IMG/VR virus record: IMGVR_UViG_3300021425_000131
Coordinates: 1 to 28,478 of that record
DNA length: 28,478 nt
Direction: 5' to 3' (one strand)
Source: a virus
This document shows positions 18,537-25,412 of this stretch, piece after piece (position 1 is the stretch's first letter; each line of letters starts with the position of its first letter). The translations under genes were made by a program, and so were the position numbers. The notes beneath the pieces are model-generated. The model was given only the letters and a program-made list of their open reading frames with translations, was not told where the DNA came from and searched no databases.

Positions 18537-18548
18537 AACCAAGGGAGA
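18537..18548 (+). promoter_or_regulatory. 12-base leader repeat with Shine-Dalgarno, copy 1
   Basis: AACCAAGGGAGA stands 5 bases before ATG 18554. The identical 12-mer precedes two genes of the leftward operon (24084-24095 and 24369-24380, minus strand), and a shortened copy, CCAAGGGAG, lies at 20115-20123. The AGGGAGA core is a strong ribosome site; conservation of the AACC in front goes beyond that need. Confidence 0.75.
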
Positions 18549-18553
18549 GTAAT

Positions 18554-18700
18554 ATGAGTAAGATCGGATCTTACGTTTTAGATCAGCAAATCGCTGAAGA
18601 CGAGAAGTCTATTCCTCAAATCATGAAAGACATGGACGACCAGGTGACTGACCTGTTCGCTGCATGGGAGCGATTCTTGGAGGAAGCAGACGATGAGTGA
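18554..18700 (+). CDS. 48-aa acidic microprotein, first gene of the recombination operon
   Basis: ATG 18554 to TGA 18700, with the strong leader AACCAAGGGAGA upstream. The product is short and acidic, with an IAEDEKSIPQIMKDMDDQ helix and a WERFLEEADDE C-terminus, likely wholly helical. It overlaps the next gene by 8 bases. No family is recognised. Being the first gene after the promoter with a strong ribosome site suggests high early expression, as for small host-takeover or DNA-metabolism factors (inference). Confidence 0.7.
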   Translation: MSKIGSYVLDQQIAEDEKSIPQIMKDMDDQVTDLFAAWERFLEEADDE

Positions 18701-19316
18701 TATTCCACAGCCCGTCATTGACGTACTGAAAGAGATTGGCGAGACAGCAAAGACATCCACATGGGATTGCCATGGTACTCGCGTGATCCTGCACAAGGCG
18801 CTTGAAAAGATTGCAGCGCACAAGGGCATTGAGTTCGAGTTGCCTGTTCACTTAGTTACCGATCCAGCTAACAAACAGGTAGCTATTCAAGTCATTGGCT
18901 CTATGCAAGACGCGCAAGGTAAGTTTAGAGCAGAATGGTCAATTGGTGAAGTCTCACCGGCCAACTGCAAGAACGCCTACCCGTTTGCTATGGCAGAGAA
19001 GCGCGCCAAAGACCGCGTGATCCTAAAGCTGGCTGGCTTGCATGGATACGTATACTCAGAGGATGAGGCTGAAGACTTCAAAGATTCACCTCATGCCGAG
19101 CTGCTCGCGTATAACGAAGCAGTGCGCGAAAACATCGACTTTGTATTCCAGGTCAAAGAGGCAGTAGCCAATGAGGAATGGGATATGTTGCGAGCGATCA
19201 TCGAGGAAACACCAAACGATGTGAAGCTTGCACTCAATCGTGCCCCCAGTAAGGGCGGCATATTCACCACGCACGAAGTTAAGTGCATGAAGCAAAACCC
19301 AAAGGGAGATAATTAA
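18693..19316 (+). CDS. Probable single-strand annealing recombinase (ERF/Rad52-type), uncertain
   Basis: 207 residues. The middle part alternates strands and helices (ILHKALEKIAAHKGIEFELP, then VAIQVIGSM) and has the stretch YPFAMAEKRAKDRVILKLAG followed by YSEDEAEDF. A conserved A.aekrA.DR.ilkL.G motif followed by an acidic loop is typical of phage annealing proteins of the ERF/Rad52 type. The downstream gene ends in an SSB-type tail, which supports a recombination pair. The C-terminal 60 residues look like a separate helical domain. Enzyme identity is inferred; no ATPase motif is present, as expected for annealing proteins. Confidence 0.55.
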   Translation: MSDIPQPVIDVLKEIGETAKTSTWDCHGTRVILHKALEKIAAHKGIEFELPVHLVTDPANKQVAIQVIGSMQDAQGKFRAEWSIGEVSPANCKNAYPFAMAEKRAKDRVILKLAGLHGYVYSEDEAEDFKDSPHAELLAYNEAVRENIDFVFQVKEAVANEEWDMLRAIIEETPNDVKLALNRAPSKGGIFTTHEVKCMKQNPKGDN

Positions 19317-19585
19317 TGCAATACGATAACAGCAGCCGTGGCGTTCTATTTAAGAATGACCGCAAGGAAAAGGAAACGCACCCTGACTACAAGGGCAGCT
19401 ACACCGACGCCAATGGCGCGGAGTTTTGGCTATCAGCTTGGATAAAGAAAGACAAGAACGGTAACGCGTTTATGTCTCTTAGCACCACGGCAAAAGACGA
19501 GGCGCATAACAAGGGCATGCAGCAAGCTCGCCAGGCTATGGCACCGCAACCACAGGAGCCATTCTCGGATGACATCCCGTTTTAA
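19316..19585 (+). CDS. SSB-like single-stranded-DNA-binding protein
   Basis: 89 residues. The N-terminal two thirds is a compact beta domain (GVLFKNDRK, then EFWLSAWIKKD and NAFMSLSTTAKD), compatible with a short OB-like fold. The C-terminus is a flexible glutamine/proline-rich stretch ending SDDIPF, the acidic-hydrophobic tail by which SSBs recruit partner proteins. The ribosome site AAAGGGAGA lies before ATG 19316, which overlaps the previous stop. Size is about half that of standard SSB. Role: coats ssDNA for the annealing protein and replication. Confidence 0.75.
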   Translation: MQYDNSSRGVLFKNDRKEKETHPDYKGSYTDANGAEFWLSAWIKKDKNGNAFMSLSTTAKDEAHNKGMQQARQAMAPQPQEPFSDDIPF

Positions 19586-19853
19586 ACCAGGACGCGCCAT
19601 ACAAGTGGCGCAAACCCTTCTCGATATCGACAACCGCACCCTGGCTAAACAGTTGGGGTGTCACGAGATGACAGTGTGTCGGATGCGCGGAGCTGATGAC
19701 ATCAAGGTAAACAAGCTTGCAGAAGTGGCCGATGCATTTGGCATGTCACTGATGGAGCTGCTTAAGTTAGGAGACGACAATGAGTCAGAAAGATCGAGTG
19801 TTGCAGTATCTCAAACAAGGCAAGGTGCTCACCAGGTTGAACGCCTGGGATGA
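19569..19853 (+). CDS. XRE-type helix-turn-helix regulator
   Basis: 94 residues, ATG 19569 inside the SSB-like gene with AGGAG (19555-19559) upstream. Residues about 10-65 fit the XRE/Cro fold: AIQVAQTLLDIDNRTLAKQL, recognition helix near CHEMTVCRMRGAD, then VNKLAEVADAFGMSLMELL. The last 25 residues are polar and unstructured. Their codons are shared with the first part of the next gene (74-base overlap in another frame). Likely regulates the promoter at 18481 or the structured region at 20108. Confidence 0.8.
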   Translation: MTSRFKPGRAIQVAQTLLDIDNRTLAKQLGCHEMTVCRMRGADDIKVNKLAEVADAFGMSLMELLKLGDDNESERSSVAVSQTRQGAHQVERLG

Positions 19854-19998
19854 GCTTGGCGTTATCGAAGCCCCGGCTCGTATCTCAGAGTTGCGGTACG
19901 AAGGCCACACAATACTAACAACCATGAAGCCGGTTCTGAATCGCTATGGCGAATCGGTACGGATTGCAGAGTGGTTTATCAAAAGGGAGCAAGCATAA
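19780..19998 (+). CDS. Small winged-helix protein (HTH_39-like)
   Basis: 72 residues, with a strong ribosome site AGGAG (about 8 bases upstream of ATG 19780). It has the phage winged-helix pattern RVLQYLKQGKVLTRLNAWDE, APARISELRYEGHTI and a C-terminal wing AEWFIKREQA. This family commonly sits in early phage operons. Its first 74 bases are embedded in the end of the XRE gene. Its stop overlaps the start of the next gene (TAATG at 19996-20000). Confidence 0.8.
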   Translation: MSQKDRVLQYLKQGKVLTRLNAWDELGVIEAPARISELRYEGHTILTTMKPVLNRYGESVRIAEWFIKREQA

Positions 19999-20081
19999 TG
20001 CAGTGCCCTTGTGGAGGCGAGACTAGACCATCTGGCGATTACATAAAATGTAATGGCTGTGGTCGTATTTATAAGAGATAA
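19998..20081 (+). CDS. 27-aa zinc-ribbon microprotein
   Basis: ATG 19998 overlaps the preceding stop, and AAAGGGAG lies about 9 bases upstream. The product is only 27 residues: MQCPCGG (C-x-C) followed after 13 residues by CNGCG (C-x2-C) and a basic end. Four cysteines in this spacing match a minimal zinc ribbon. It is the last gene before a terminator, with no other reading frame covering the segment. Coding status rests on the tight coupling, the ribosome site and the four Cys; function unknown. Confidence 0.65.
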   Translation: MQCPCGGETRPSGDYIKCNGCGRIYKR

Positions 20082-20085
20082 AAAA

Positions 20086-20107
20086 AGCCCGGCTTTTACA
20101 CCGGGCT
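20086..20107. terminator. Bidirectional-looking terminator after the zinc-ribbon gene
   Basis: Stem AGCCCGG (20086-20092) and CCGGGCT (20101-20107), 7 bp, loop CTTTTACA. Six A bases precede it, so a U-tract follows the stem only on the minus strand; on the plus strand the following bases are AGGTTG. It sits 5 bases after the operon's last stop, so rightward termination is plausible but weaker. Confidence 0.7.
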
Positions 20108-20410
20108 AGGTTGTCCAAGGGAGTGGACGGTGGTATCTTCAAGGGGTCAAATCGTGAAGATGAATGTAGTATACACCTCTATAACATTTATTGTTATGCA
20201 TTCATCCTCATTTTGTCAGAGATTACTGGGCGTTAGGCCAGGGAATATGAAAACCCTGGAGACGGAGTTGACCCTCTCTATGATGCGCCCCGCTGGTCGA
20301 GAGCAGATCAAGCGGATAGATGTCAAGATTCGATACAGTAATCATAGCTCGCCATTATTAACTTCATTTCATTGTTGTCCGACAGGACATCAAAAGGGAA
20401 AGTGTGGATT
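20108..20410 (+). other. Structured intergenic region between early operons
   Basis: About 300 bases without a well-supported gene but with several stem-loops: GTCCA/TGGAC (20113-20117 with 20124-20128) holding AGGGAG in its loop; ATCTTCA/TGAAGAT (20135-20141 with 20155-20161) with AGGGG in its loop; ATAACA/TGTTAT (20181-20186 with 20192-20197), a possible operator; CCAGGG/CCCTGG (20238-20243 with 20254-20259); and TGTCC/GGACA near 20376-20389. The middle (20168-20215) is AT-rich. Candidates: untranslated leader, small RNA, operator or origin. No consensus promoter with correct spacing was found. Confidence 0.45.
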
Positions 20411-21075: not shown

Positions 21076-21464
21076 GTCATCGGTGGACAGTCAAAACAAA
21101 ATTCCAAGCTGAAGAGCTGTGCAAGTTCATCATGGAGCACTGCGAAGATGGCAAGACCTACGAGATCCATGAGCCTACGTTGACCGGCCAACAGATCAAA
21201 GCTGTGCATGCCTACTGCGACCATGTAGCCAGGGATATGAACGCTACGGGTATCGACATGCAGCATGTGTTAAGCGGTGCTAAACTATCGATACCACCAA
21301 CAGGTAAGATGCTATATCACATAATGTGGAAGCCAATCCAAACCGCCATGCTACAAAAGGCAGAGTTACCTTCAGTCGGTAAGTATGAAGTAGATCAGAT
21401 ATATCAAGTCATGGCGCGTCACCTGGTTGAAGCTCACGATATTAATGTGAGGTTTGGCCGATAG
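21072..21464 (+). CDS. Conserved early phage protein, NinB-like position
   Basis: 130 residues. The central pattern TGQQIKAVHAYCDHVARDMN, then GIDMQHVLS and ending MWKPIQTAMLQKAELPSVG with YQVMARHLVEAHDI, fits a widespread phage family in which a Q..A.H.YC..la..lN..G.dm..vL segment is followed by a W.PIQ.AM box. These proteins occupy the place of NinB-type recombination factors in several phages, but I cannot assign an activity. It follows the 98-aa gene through ATGA. The next gene begins 13 bases after its stop. Confidence 0.65.
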   Translation: MSHRWTVKTKFQAEELCKFIMEHCEDGKTYEIHEPTLTGQQIKAVHAYCDHVARDMNATGIDMQHVLSGAKLSIPPTGKMLYHIMWKPIQTAMLQKAELPSVGKYEVDQIYQVMARHLVEAHDINVRFGR

Positions 21465-21477
21465 TTCTGGGGGAACT

Positions 21478-22629
21478 ATGGACCTGCTAGATTTTTGCAA
21501 CACTGAACGACAACGACAAATCGTAGAGCTACACGAGCAAGGTCTTGGCTACACTAAGATCGGCGAGCAAGTGGGATGCTCTCGCTATGCTGTCCGCGAC
21601 AGTCTTCAATCCGTAAAAGCTAGAGCTGCCACGCAAGGCTGGTCTCCACAGCATGACATGGTTCATACAGTCCCTGTTGGATTCAACGTCAAAGGTGTCT
21701 CGACCTACTATTCGGAGGACGGAAAACCTGTAGGCCAGTGGGTGAAATCTGTCGCTGACAAAGAAGTTCAATTCCAAATGATGATCGAGCGGATTGAGTT
21801 GGCGTGTGAAGGTATTACGCCGTGGAAGCCAGTCGAGAAGCCACAAGCCATAGATGATGATCTCCTCTCCCTCTTGGTGATTACGGACTTTCATCTGGGT
21901 AGCTACTGCTGGGGGCAGGAGACAAGCGAGGACTATGACACCAACATGGCTCGCGATTTATTCCTCTCTAGCATCAAAGAGATGATCGACAGCACTCCCA
22001 AAAGCAAGGTCGGCTTGCTGTGTAACCTCGGTGATTTTTTGCACTGGGACGGCCTGGACCAATTGACTCCGAGCGGAAAAAATTTGCTCGAAGGCGACTC
22101 AAGATACTCGCGCATTGTAGACATAGCCATGACGGTTATGAATGAAGCTGTTCGCATGATGCTGGAGAAATACGAGAAGGTTGTCTTTGTTTGCGCTGAA
22201 GGCAATCACGATATTGCCGGCTCTATTTGGTTGCGGAAGTTCATCAGAAAACTATATGCAAACGAGCCACGACTGGAGGTCATTGATAACGATTTTCCTT
22301 ACTACGCTTATCGGCATGGCGAAATCATGCTTTGCTTCCATCATGGTCACAAAGTAAAGATGGATCGGCTGCCCAAAGTGTTCTCAAGCGAGCCGCGCTT
22401 TAGAGAGGACTGGGGTAAGTCTAAGGTAGCCTATATCCATTCCGGCCATTATCACTCTGAGAGGGTTCTGGAGGACGCTGGAGCCATTATAGAGCAACAC
22501 CCTACCCTAGCCTCAAGGGACTCGTATGCGACCCGTCTGGGCCTTATGTCACAGCGTGGCGCTAAGGTGATTACCTATGACTCTACCGATGGCGAGGTTG
22601 CCCGCATAACTGTGAGGCCGAAAGCGTGA
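21478..22629 (+). CDS. HTH plus metallophosphoesterase protein
   Basis: 383 residues from ATG 21478 (GGGGGA just upstream; an in-frame TTG at 21454 is the alternative). Residues about 8-50 form a helix-turn-helix (LGYTKIGEQVGCSRYAVRDS). From 130 on lies a calcineurin-like phosphoesterase with all metal motifs: DFHLG (Asp137, His139), GDFLHWDG (Asp186), GNHD (242-245), HHGH (288-291) and GHYH (323-326). A dinuclear-metal nuclease or phosphatase acting on phage or host DNA is likely; the HTH would place it on DNA. Similar fusions occur in early regions of other podoviruses. The stop overlaps the next start (GTGA). Confidence 0.88.
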   Translation: MDLLDFCNTERQRQIVELHEQGLGYTKIGEQVGCSRYAVRDSLQSVKARAATQGWSPQHDMVHTVPVGFNVKGVSTYYSEDGKPVGQWVKSVADKEVQFQMMIERIELACEGITPWKPVEKPQAIDDDLLSLLVITDFHLGSYCWGQETSEDYDTNMARDLFLSSIKEMIDSTPKSKVGLLCNLGDFLHWDGLDQLTPSGKNLLEGDSRYSRIVDIAMTVMNEAVRMMLEKYEKVVFVCAEGNHDIAGSIWLRKFIRKLYANEPRLEVIDNDFPYYAYRHGEIMLCFHHGHKVKMDRLPKVFSSEPRFREDWGKSKVAYIHSGHYHSERVLEDAGAIIEQHPTLASRDSYATRLGLMSQRGAKVITYDSTDGEVARITVRPKA

Positions 22630-23037: not shown

Positions 23038-23383
23038 CAAGGCTGTAAGGCTACGCGATGGTAAGTGTTTGCACTGCCACAAGGAAGGGCGGCTTGAATG
23101 CTGTCACGTGTTTGGCCGCAGAAATAAGCGGTTGCGCTGGAGCATGTCAAACGCAGTTTCCATGTGCCACTATTGCCACCGGCATATGACCGAGCAGCCA
23201 ATAATCTTTCACGAGTGGTTGAGAGAGCTGTACGGGGATGAGCGCATGGATAAGCTGCGCCTGACGAGTAATGAGATTTATAAGACTACCGAAGCGGTAA
23301 GGAAGGAAATCGCGGCGCATTACCGCGATGAAGTCAGAAAAAAAGAAGCTGATCCAGATCACGAGATTCAGAGCTGGAACTAA
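22997..23383 (+). CDS. HNH endonuclease
   Basis: 128 residues. The zinc pairs CLHC (about 24-27) and CHYC (about 57-60) enclose the HNH core: ECCHVFGR (His), LRWSMSNAVSMC (Asn) and CHYCHRHM (His). This resembles the NinG-type recombination nuclease layout. Probable role: cleavage of branched or host DNA during replication and packaging. It starts inside the zinc-ribbon gene (41-base overlap). Its last 50 bases overlap the end of the leftward sigma-like gene, so the two transcripts converge here, and no terminator separates them. Confidence 0.85.
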   Translation: MATINNGPADRAFSKAVRLRDGKCLHCHKEGRLECCHVFGRRNKRLRWSMSNAVSMCHYCHRHMTEQPIIFHEWLRELYGDERMDKLRLTSNEIYKTTEAVRKEIAAHYRDEVRKKEADPDHEIQSWN

Positions 23384-23531
23384 AATCAGCCCAGGCTTTG
23401 TAATCTTCGTTCTCAAGTAGTTTGCGCATGGCGTTTTGTTCGATCTGTCGCACACGTTGACGAGAAACTCCGAGCACCTCAGCGATCTCGGAGTATGTCA
23501 TGTGGTAATCAGGATTGGTTGCAGCTGTCAT
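23334..23531 (-). CDS. Stand-alone sigma70 region 4-like protein
   Basis: 65 residues. The segment MTYSEIAEVLGVSRQRVRQI followed by EQNAMRKLLE closely follows the sigma70 region 4.2 consensus (T..EIg..fgVtReRIRQIe..AlrKLr) that contacts the -35 element and the RNA polymerase beta flap. No region 1, 2 or 3 is present; after the domain there is only a short serine/acidic tail. Ribosome site GAGGGAGA lies just before ATG (23531-23529), which overlaps the preceding leftward gene by four bases. Likely an anti-/co-sigma or replacement of host sigma region 4 that redirects host polymerase; the phage has no visible RNA polymerase of its own. Confidence 0.82.
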   Translation of the reverse strand: MTAATNPDYHMTYSEIAEVLGVSRQRVRQIEQNAMRKLLENEDYKAWADFSSSSESRDLDQLLFF

Positions 23532-23674
23532 TGGTCTCCCTCATAGGGATCATGTGTGCCAGGATACTTCAGCAGCCAGGTGCCTTGCAGATTCTCCATG
23601 TACTTAGTGCTGACATCATGACTTTTACACCAGCGCAAAGCACTCTCCAAGCTGTTGAAAACAATCGTTGTCAT
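23528..23674 (-). CDS. 48-aa microprotein of the leftward operon
   Basis: On the minus strand ATG 23674-23672 overlaps the preceding stop (ATGA) and TGA 23530-23528 overlaps the start of the sigma-like gene (ATGA). The product has an amphipathic helix (LESALRWCKSHDVSTKYM), a strand LQGTWLLKYPGTHD and a short acidic end. No family is recognised. Overlapping stops and starts on both sides leave little doubt that it is expressed with its neighbours. Confidence 0.7.
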   Translation of the reverse strand: MTTIVFNSLESALRWCKSHDVSTKYMENLQGTWLLKYPGTHDPYEGDQ

Positions 23675-23886
23675 GCCTTCCACCTTATGCAGCTCGCTGT
23701 GCTACATGCTTTAGGTTGAATGGTGTTCATTGGAATCCACCAGTTCTGACCTTCTGATTTAACAAGCACCTCGAGCAGCGCCAGGTTACCCTCGTGTGAA
23801 AGACGGGAACCGAAGACAACGGACTCTTCAGCCACGTCGCCCCCGATCATGAATTGAACTACCTTGCCTATTGTTTTTGGTCTCAT
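23671..23886 (-). CDS. 71-aa hypothetical protein of the leftward operon
   Basis: ATG 23886-23884 overlaps the preceding stop by four bases and the stop (23673-23671) overlaps the next start in the same way. The sequence has a beta-rich first half (IGKVVQFMIGGDVAEESVVF) and a helix NLALLEVLVKSEGQ followed by WWIPMNTIQP. It contains two late cysteines. Not recognised; could be a small DNA mimic or polymerase-binding partner of the sigma-like product (speculation from operon context). Confidence 0.65.
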   Translation of the reverse strand: MRPKTIGKVVQFMIGGDVAEESVVFGSRLSHEGNLALLEVLVKSEGQNWWIPMNTIQPKACSTASCIRWKA

Positions 23887-24077
23887 CGGTAGGCTCTCTC
23901 TTCTAGGTCCATGAGGTCATTCAGCATTTCGTCACGAATCTGATTTAGCTGGATGACAGACTGCCCCTGGATATCGGTGAGGGCGCAGTGTAGGTCAGCT
24001 CGAGTAAGCTCTGCGAGAGTCTCATCAAGTCTGTCGAGGATGCTATTGTACTGCTCGATACGGTCGTCTAGTCCCAT
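23883..24077 (-). CDS. 64-aa helical protein of the leftward operon
   Basis: Start ATG 24077-24075, chosen over a longer frame from 24134 because the exact leader repeat AACCAAGGGAGA stands 6 bases upstream. The product is almost wholly helical, acidic and amphipathic (DDRIEQYNSILDRLDETLAE ... IRDEMLNDLMDLEERAY), so a coiled coil or helical hairpin dimer is likely. No known family is recognised. It is coupled to the 71-aa gene by ATGA. Confidence 0.7.
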   Translation of the reverse strand: MGLDDRIEQYNSILDRLDETLAELTRADLHCALTDIQGQSVIQLNQIRDEMLNDLMDLEERAYR

Positions 24078-24083
24078 TGTACT

Positions 24084-24095
24084 TCTCCCTTGGTT
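24084..24095 (-). promoter_or_regulatory. 12-base leader repeat, copy 2
   Basis: AACCAAGGGAGA on the minus strand, 6 bases before ATG 24077; identical to the copies at 18537 and 24369. It lies inside the leftward operon, directly behind two small hairpins, suggesting an independent translation or processing unit. Confidence 0.75.
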
Positions 24096-24102
24096 TCTTG
24101 AG

Positions 24103-24140
24103 ACACCCCGAAGGGTGTTTCGCCTGGTCACCATCCAGGC
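24103..24140 (-). promoter_or_regulatory. Tandem stem-loops between leftward genes
   Basis: Two perfect 6-bp stems: GCCTGG/CCAGGC (24122-24127 with 24135-24140) and ACACCC/GGGTGT (24103-24108 with 24113-24118). The second carries a TTCG tetraloop when read on the minus strand. No U-tract follows, so an mRNA-stabilising or processing site, or an attenuator, is more likely than a simple terminator. Confidence 0.5.
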
Positions 24141-24153
24141 TCATCAGTCAAGA

Positions 24154-24363
24154 TTACAATTGGTTAATTAAGTAGCCGTTGCGGTCGGTGTCGTTGAAGC
24201 GGTAAACAAAATGATCGTAAACCTCTTCCATGTCGACGACCTCGAATCCGTATCCAGCCTCGCGTAATATTGTCCACGCCAGCTCTTGGATTTCTTTGGT
24301 GTGAGCGTCGTAACGTCCAGTTTTTTCAAAACACTCTAAAATGAATTTTGCTTGCTTAGTCAT
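24154..24363 (-). CDS. 69-aa hypothetical protein, first gene of the leftward operon
   Basis: ATG 24363-24361 with the leader AACCAAGGGAGA 5 bases upstream and a good promoter some 40 bases further. The sequence is helical then mixed: QAKFILECFEKTGRYDAHTK, ELAWTILREAGYGFEVVDME, then YDHFVYRFNDTDRNGY. Negatively charged overall. No family is recognised. As the first gene of the leftward early transcript it is likely made soon after infection. Confidence 0.7.
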   Translation of the reverse strand: MTKQAKFILECFEKTGRYDAHTKEIQELAWTILREAGYGFEVVDMEEVYDHFVYRFNDTDRNGYLINQL

Positions 24364-24368
24364 AGTTT

Positions 24369-24380
24369 TCTCCCTTGGTT
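24369..24380 (-). promoter_or_regulatory. 12-base leader repeat, copy 3
   Basis: AACCAAGGGAGA on the minus strand, 5 bases before the first leftward start codon (24363). Identical to copies at 18537-18548 and 24084-24095. Confidence 0.75.
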
Positions 24381-24408
24381 AGTGGCTGTGTTCCCAGCCG
24401 ATGAAAGC

Positions 24409-24437
24409 ATTAAACCACATCTAAAAATAAAGTTCAA
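24409..24437 (-). promoter_or_regulatory. Leftward sigma70-type promoter
   Basis: On the minus strand TTGAAC (24437-24432) and TTTAAT (24414-24409) are separated by exactly 17 bases, matching 4/6 and 5/6 of the -35 and -10 consensus. It would drive the five-gene leftward operon including the sigma-like gene. A T-rich spacer is present. Confidence 0.7.
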
Positions 24438-24461
24438 CACTTTTCGTGATCTTTTTTTGTA

Positions 24462-24492
24462 TTGGTTTAAGAATCACTGTTTGTGTTATACT
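24462..24492 (+). promoter_or_regulatory. Rightward sigma70-type promoter with extended -10
   Basis: TATACT (24487-24492, 5/6) is preceded by TGT (24484-24486), a full extended -10 element. A weak -35-like TTGGTT (24462-24467) lies 19 bases upstream. It is divergent to the leftward promoter and would start the early block that leads into terminase and portal. Confidence 0.65.
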
Positions 24493-24523: not shown

Positions 24524-24715
24524 ATGTGTGAGACGGTAAAACGCGCCATGTTTTGTGCACGTAACAAAGAGCAGCACATCGAGAACCTGGAGGTGGTATG
24601 TACCCTGGTTGGTCGGTTGAAAGGATTGACGCAGAGTCAGTACCTGGATCTATGTGCGAAGGATAAGCTCGAGAATGCGCGCACACTGTACATGGCAAAA
24701 CATTATCCAGCATAG
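24524..24715 (+). CDS. 63-aa hypothetical early protein
   Basis: ATG 24524 with GGGGA (24511-24515) 8 bases upstream; the longer frame upstream would run through the promoter, so it is rejected. Helical, with four cysteines spread along the chain (MCETVKRAMFCARN, EVVCTLVGRLKGL, YLDLCAKDKLENA); not a clean zinc motif. Unknown family. First gene of the rightward early unit, 8 bases before a membrane microprotein. Confidence 0.6.
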   Translation: MCETVKRAMFCARNKEQHIENLEVVCTLVGRLKGLTQSQYLDLCAKDKLENARTLYMAKHYPA

Positions 24716-24986: not shown

Positions 24987-25122
24987 ACTCGACAAGGAAA
25001 CCAGGGACCGACACTTCCCTGAATACAATGGCGGCAAAGGCAGCAAGCCGCGCAACTCAACTGCTCAATCCAGACAAGCGTATAAGGATGGATGGGATAG
25101 GATATTCGGTAAGAAGAAATGA
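24967..25122 (+). CDS. 51-aa basic microprotein before terminase
   Basis: ATG 24967 with GAGG (24957-24960) 6 bases upstream; TGA at 25120-25122 overlaps the small-terminase start (ATGA). Highly basic and disordered, with FPEYNGGKGSKPRNSTAQSR and a C-terminal AYKDGWDRIFGKKK. The dense K/R content and contact with the terminase genes hint at DNA binding during packaging. Family not recognised. Confidence 0.65.
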   Translation: MPDQRHKLDKETRDRHFPEYNGGKGSKPRNSTAQSRQAYKDGWDRIFGKKK

Positions 25123-25412
25123 GTAATAACAGTGCAGCTCAACGTAACAGGAAGATTAGGCAGGATGCTCTCAGGGAGCAGTTAGCCCAGCAATGTCACG
25201 AACAGCATGTTATTGAAATCATTAATGAATTGAGTGATTCTGATTTGGAGTTTGACTCTCTCATGATTCGGCGCAAGGAAGTTGCACTCAATGCACACCT
25301 AAAGCTGATGGCTAAGTACATCCCGGACCTGAAATCACAAGAGCTAACAGGTGCCGATGGCGGTGACCTGGTGATTGCTGTACAGCGTAAGCGTTTCGAT
25401 GGCGACGATTGA
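25119..25412 (+). CDS. Terminase small subunit
   Basis: 97 residues. The N-terminal helices (AAQRNRKIRQDALREQLAQQ) are followed by SDLEFDSLMIRRKEVALNAH and a MAKYIPDLKSQELTGADGG end, a pattern well known from short podovirus small terminases with a helical core and flexible C-terminus. It recognises the phage DNA and hands it to the large subunit encoded next. The last 14 bases overlap the large-subunit start chosen here. Confidence 0.78.
   Translation: MSNNSAAQRNRKIRQDALREQLAQQCHEQHVIEIINELSDSDLEFDSLMIRRKEVALNAHLKLMAKYIPDLKSQELTGADGGDLVIAVQRKRFDGDD

Follow-up and report, generated by a model that had tools for sequence, protein, structure and literature searches.

A phage locus resembling a swappable microgene array, headed by a conserved RNA leader and closed by a small sigma region 4.2 protein

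T4-type mobile regulatory cassettes carry a repeated sequence ahead of the starts of genes from many families. The start-associated sequences of cluster K mycobacteriophages are repeats of a comparable kind (PMC3203893). In acr operons, helix-turn-helix (HTH) proteins of the Aca type (Aca1 to Aca10) act as autorepressors (PMC9410906), and in prophages, hammerhead ribozymes flank variable genes, ardA included (PMC3088659). Conserved regulatory sequences head anti-defense genes in archaeal viruses (PMC11065993). T7 Gp5.7 is a 7-kDa winged-HTH-like repressor of host RNA polymerase promoters on the phage genome (PMC5569994).

Here, we analyzed a leftward five-gene locus (p1 to p5; Table 1) in a 28,478-nt stretch of viral DNA, referred to as the window. 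The five minus-strand open reading frames of 69, 64, 71, 48, and 65 codons, and the ATGA overlaps joining the last four (p2 to p5), were confirmed as described in the initial annotation. The locus shares with acr-aca operons a strong host-type promoter, small variable genes, and a constant HTH protein within the operon (PMC9410906). However, the constant protein here, p5, consists of a sigma region 4.2 domain, matches no recognized Aca, and is also found without the variable genes (hereafter cassettes); searches of Pfam, PHROGs, and NCBIfam gave no homology to Acr or Aca families for p1 to p5 or for the cassette representatives. The cognate inverted repeat of acr-aca operons lies in the core promoter; here, candidate paired sites lie in both of two divergent promoters but are uncoupled from p5 type in two contigs (L007 and L044). 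As with the prophage hammerheads (PMC3088659), the genes lying next to a ribozyme, singly or in short blocks, vary in identity. In contrast to them, ribozymes and stop-codon hairpins take turns as linkers here, a single leader and a single terminal HTH gene are common to the arrays, and the phages are ones in which no tyrosine integrase was found. The repeated sequence stands ahead of the starts of many gene families, like the cluster K start-associated sequences (PMC3203893), and a conserved element precedes small, presumably early genes, like the promoter element of archaeal-virus anti-defense genes (PMC11065993); in contrast to the latter, the promoters here are of the bacterial sigma70 type and are followed by an RNA leader, and the genes have a putative anti-defense role. 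Compared with both the cluster K sequences and the T4-type cassettes, the repeat is a different sequence, tied to the transcript 5' end and complemented by a hairpin or ribozyme on the stop side. As a putative regulator, p5 would resemble T7 Gp5.7, but that protein is winged-HTH-like, in contrast to the sigma region 4.2 domain of p5. The individual elements of the locus are of known kinds, while their combination, in which an invariant leader and linkers of two sorts (stop hairpin or hammerhead) go with shared microgenes and a region 4.2 protein at the end, appears new, no description of it having been found in a literature search that ran mostly outside subscription journals.

Table 1. Features of the five-gene locus and the adjoining divergent promoter region (window coordinates)
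Feature	Position	Strand	Remarks
p5	23334-23531	-	65 aa; constant terminal gene; conserved domain, a sigma region 4.2 helix-turn-helix, at residues ~10-42
p4	23528-23674	-	48 aa; cassette gene; coupled to p3
p3	23671-23886	-	71 aa; cassette gene; coupled to p2
p2	23883-24077	-	64 aa; cassette gene
Hammerhead ribozyme linker	24092-24155	-	Abuts p1 stop codon
p1	24154-24363	-	69 aa; variable cassette gene; one other contig (L092/L197) has it
Invariant 5' leader ATCGGCTGGGAACACAGCCACTAACCAAGGGAG	24370-24402	-	5'-terminal stem-loop and ribosome site
Leftward array promoter, -10 TTTAAT	24409-24414	-	17 bp from -35
Leftward array promoter, -35 TTGAAC	24432-24437	-	Promoter comparison
Operator-like site AACACTTTTCGTGAT	24436-24450	+	Over leftward -35
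Operator-like site AACACAAACAGTGAT	24473-24487	-	Abuts -10 of rightward promoter
Extended -10 TGTTATACT, putative rightward promoter toward terminase genes	24484-24492	+	By eye
First rightward gene	24524-24715	+	63 aa; conserved partner of divergent pair

The window represents an incomplete genome, permuted and about 30 kb in size; terL lies at both ends of one contig (L056/L070), and the relatives are permuted genomes near 30 kb. The nearest match to TerL was that of Burkholderia phage BcepC6B (50%), and the tail and internal-virion genes were consistent with a podovirus. The lack of an RNA polymerase gene, noted in the initial annotation, was borne out by a search for T7-type RNA polymerase (PF00940), which found none in the window or in 17 related contigs (T7 positive control, 1e-109). 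Tyrosine integrase was not found in the window and the relatives searched, nor was family A DNA polymerase in the relatives, with positive controls matched in each case. Isolate phages showed no DNA similarity to the locus. The true start of the first rightward gene is probably the ATG at 24524. A candidate role of p5 as the terminase small subunit was rejected, because a 97-aa gene overlapping terL (25119 to 25412) looks like TerS, judging from its position and C terminus.

We compared the locus with 43 other contigs carrying the HNH gene, p5, and the rightward 63-aa gene, a set from which repeated contigs were removed by hand and for which p5 was itself a selection criterion. The complete five-gene set occurred in none of the 43 (p1 in 1, p2 in 12, p3 in 12, and p4 in 17). 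The five genes are therefore not conserved together, the very outcome that the initial annotation had named as contrary to its view of them as one set. Conversely, p5 was present without cassettes in at least five contigs (L026, L027, L059, L098, no leader; L152, leader then p5), so p5 is not merely a cassette repressor. Automatic calling placed the genes of 67 distinct arrays in 67 families, more than 50 of them array families, with some p4 copies missed and a few loci at which the calls ran into neighboring genes. The p5 family had 46 members and the next two had 13 each, while most had one to five. Some leader-headed arrays had no p5, and in another phage group, the unit from leader to p5 was reversed, pointing toward the terminase; both orientations occur.

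The cassette genes p1 to p4 were under purifying selection (dN/dS of 0.04 for p1 and of 0.02 to 0.17 for p4, in the pairs reported). Profile searches (Pfam, PHROGs, and NCBIfam) gave them no relation to sigma or anti-sigma factors, and their slots held dozens of unrelated families, which speaks against the earlier suggestion that p1 to p4 are appropriation or anti-sigma factors. Among 51 cassette representatives, the matches amounted to three function-less PHROGs, two domains of unknown function, and a coiled-coil with a weak score, and the cassette proteins matched no known anti-defense family in the same three databases. Between phages of the window type and phages with a diverged backbone, the leader plus cassette was the strongest DNA match (269 bp at 96% in L047/L157, 246 bp at 95% in L069/L141, and 288 bp at 91% in L031/L096). 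Other DNA pieces common to those phage pairs were shorter or weaker, and backbones were mostly diverged between phages sharing cassettes at 91 to 96% DNA identity.

Array starts carried the mRNA leader ATCGGCTGGGGACACAGCCA behind sigma70-type promoters, the start sequence reading ATCGGCTGGGGACACAGCCAC-TAACCAAGGGAGA. Across 22 distinct promoters, the 20-nt core of the leader was 99% identical, versus 41% for the 57 nt upstream, a statistic that is partly ascertained in that part of the promoter set came from an exact-match scan; loci fetched via TerL or p5 likewise had the leader, with a few variants. The window contained one copy and shuffled sequences none, and the two matches in bacterial genomes, neither followed by a ribosome site, were taken as chance. 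The leader is predicted to fold as a 5'-terminal stem-loop. Given that the -10 stands at a fixed distance from it (ending 6 nt upstream in 19 of 23 distinct promoters), the transcript is predicted to start at its first bases, at about 24402. The usual linker between cassettes was GGYCGC-(A)TAA-GCGGCCTTTACCAAGGGAGA, with the stop codon in the loop of a hairpin and the same ribosome site as in the leader. A crude pattern put the stop-codon hairpin at the end of 69 of 159 non-p5 genes and a hammerhead after 11.

A second, larger structured leader (CCGACAGCCAGCKGGCAAAGCACTGACAACCGAGAGG...GACTTA-hairpin-TAAGTC) was seen about 140 nt ahead of the first cassette in L006, L044, L050, L196, L193, and L195. 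Two phage types had it in common at 90% identity; four sequences included three compensatory pairs, and Rfam gave no match. Between L006 and the 50-kb phage contig L193, DNA sharing was limited to this leader type (122 bp at 90%) and to the ribozyme (63 bp at 89%). The first leader type also stood ahead of an unknown 312-aa gene in Aeromonas phage 59.1 (KY290950.1, 31111 to 31155; L198, 3001 to 3045), which has sheath and baseplate genes and was the only isolate found with the leader.

The hammerhead linker between p1 and p2, which the initial annotation had missed along with the overlap of p5 and the HNH gene, contained the catalytic core (CUGAUGA, GAAA, and a UH cleavage site) and matched the Rfam RAGATH-1-hammerhead model over its full length at 30.9 bits, below the gathering cutoff of 56.3. 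In eight aligned sequences, 7 of 17 stem pairs had changed on both sides and still paired; 94.7% of alignment cells were paired, and 0 of 500 shuffles were as good. The three hammerhead helices are thus maintained by compensatory change. A model built from these eight sequences found 13 copies in nine loci, several of which had two; the window sequence was among those used to build this model, so its score against the model is not independent. Cleavage is predicted between 24102 and 24101, 24 nt ahead of the p2 start, and would keep the p2 ribosome site whole, with 24 nt of leader upstream of the start codon. The ribozyme-bearing part of L193 (1000 to 2600) also had a weak DNA match in coliphage mEp515 (74% over 85 nt, 2910 to 2994), which falls under a gene annotated as hypothetical.

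Profile and fold searches agreed with the original description of p5 as a bare sigma region 4.2 HTH. It matched Pfam Sigma70_r4 (PF04545; E = 1.8e-11; 43.8 bits; gathering cutoff 24.1) and, by profile, region 4 of SigA in the PDB (1e-10), and Foldseek returned sigma region 4, with E values that are weak for so small a protein. The AlphaFold model was of moderate confidence (mean pLDDT of 73), and its HTH superposed on Thermus region 4 within 0.5 Å over 29 residues. The Pfam match covered just profile positions 20 to 48 of 50, with about 10 residues before the HTH, and p5 lacks region 4.1. In sigma factors, region 4.1 contributes to the beta-flap-binding surface. No sigma region 2 partner was seen among p1 to p4 in profile searches. 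Because the 3' end of p5 overlaps the convergent HNH gene (23334 to 23383), conservation of its SSSSESR tail may reflect the antisense overlap alone; relatives whose p5 points the opposite way have other tails. A search for p5 relatives in plasmids gave one weak match. We infer that p5 is most likely a small DNA-binding regulator of the array and terminase promoter pair, derived from a sigma region 4.2 domain.

The leftward promoter (TTGAAC-17 bp-TTTAAT) scored 9 of 12 and was rejected by a strict promoter scan. Nevertheless, 21 of 23 distinct array promoters scored at least 8 of 12, versus 31% of shuffles, and this comparison supports the 17-bp-spaced sigma70 promoter proposed earlier, imperfect as it is. 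Two AACAC-N5-GTGAT sites face each other between the leftward and rightward starts, one per promoter; the window has no further exact copies. The two sites were retained, with varying N5, in six related regions, and a looser form occurred 1.03 times per region versus 0.043 in shuffles (35 regions, related to each other). Generic inverted repeats were modestly enriched in array promoters (Fisher P = 0.004). The second half-site differed in other lineages (GTTTG, GTTTA, or GTGGC). Site type partly tracked p5 type, and p5 is a candidate ligand of the paired sites; however, L007 and L044 mix the types, so another protein may bind them. Because operator-like sites sit in both divergent promoters, it is plausible that the locus switches between array and terminase operon, by means of a DNA-binding regulator and not a sigma-appropriation complex.

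We favor, with a probability of roughly 55%, the interpretation that the locus is a swappable microgene array with an early accessory role, built of leader, hairpin or ribozyme linkers, and p5 as regulator of the divergent promoters. According to this model, host sigma70 RNA polymerase would initiate near 24402, which would place the fixed stem-loop leader, followed by a strong ribosome site, at the start of the mRNA. One to several cassettes would follow, each consisting of an open reading frame and a linker leading to the next ribosome site, the linker being either a hairpin whose loop contains the stop codon or a hammerhead ribozyme. Recombination at the repeated borders could exchange cassettes among phages, and the ribozyme would separate p1 from p2 by cutting their common message. 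The cassette products are probably early accessory proteins directed against host functions or defenses. For its part, p5 would most likely target the two divergent promoters by way of the paired AACAC-N5-GTGAT sites, so as to switch off the array promoter, to time the terminase operon, or both.

Several observations could also be accommodated if the microgenes were hypervariable phage ORFans without a common role, their leader and linkers being expression signals spread by homologous recombination. No cassette has a functional annotation, a similar ribosome site precedes other window genes, and in Aeromonas phage 59.1 the leader heads a larger gene. We nevertheless find this explanation rather doubtful, given a leader loop that is near-invariant over diverged promoters, purifying selection on p1 to p4, and the repeated association with one terminal regulator gene. 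A further alternative takes p5 as a late activator of the terminase operon that merely shares the promoter region of the array, in the manner of the RinA/ArpU regulators, which adjoin the terminase genes of Gram-positive phages. That p5 always neighbors the terminase operon (in some relatives upstream of it and in the same direction), that a paired site abuts the rightward -10, and that p5 is retained without cassettes are all consistent with activation, but the site overlaps the core promoter and is better suited to repression. Moreover, p5 is about half the size of such regulators, and of the 49 NCBIfam families listed for it, the best 25 did not include RinA/ArpU. We consider late activation unlikely.

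The initial annotation had itself proposed a takeover of the host polymerase. In such a takeover, p5 would be a partial sigma factor or mimic redirecting host RNA polymerase to phage promoters, with its partners as appropriation or anti-sigma factors. Parts of that proposal stand, namely, the genuine region 4.2 homology of p5 and a phage in which no RNA polymerase gene of the single-subunit kind was found; the fixed five-part set (0 of 43 contigs) does not. p5 comes without region 4.1 and without a region 2 partner, the partner genes are unrelated between phages or missing, and the array promoters resemble ordinary sigma70 promoters. Takeover thus appears very improbable; we leave it a small share of our credence, given that the sigma likeness of p5 is genuine and that the phage depends on host polymerase.

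Returning to the microgene array, we hold more tentatively, at a little under even odds, a broader version of it: that the invariant RNA leader and the linkers double as expression units and recombination borders, making up an exchangeable library of dozens of anti-host microproteins with one sigma-derived regulator, a library that extends across phage types and can be found by the leader alone. If true, the leader ATCGGCTGGGGACACAGCC would be a sequence handle for retrieving many unknown phage microproteins, as aca genes were for anti-CRISPRs; the small sample here already contains more than 50 families. Phage hammerhead ribozymes would gain a concrete role in keeping exchanged cassettes apart on the mRNA, and a domain of sigma region 4.2 would have been reused as a minimal stand-alone regulator.

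Additional features were observed outside the locus. Some genomes had two leader-headed arrays at separate sites (L141/L159 on one contig and L145/L190 on another), the second lying near an endolysin gene with no p5 seen. Within the window, a metallophosphoesterase (21454 to 22629) has an N-terminal HTH with weak similarity to Sigma70_r4_2, and a 94-aa protein (19569 to 19853) has a weak Cro/C1-type HTH, which makes it a further candidate for regulating the divergent promoters. Finally, four AAGGGAR-ATG starts resembling the ribosome site of the arrays occurred in the rightward small-gene block (18541 to 20394, plus strand), at 18541, 19302, 19983, and 20394.
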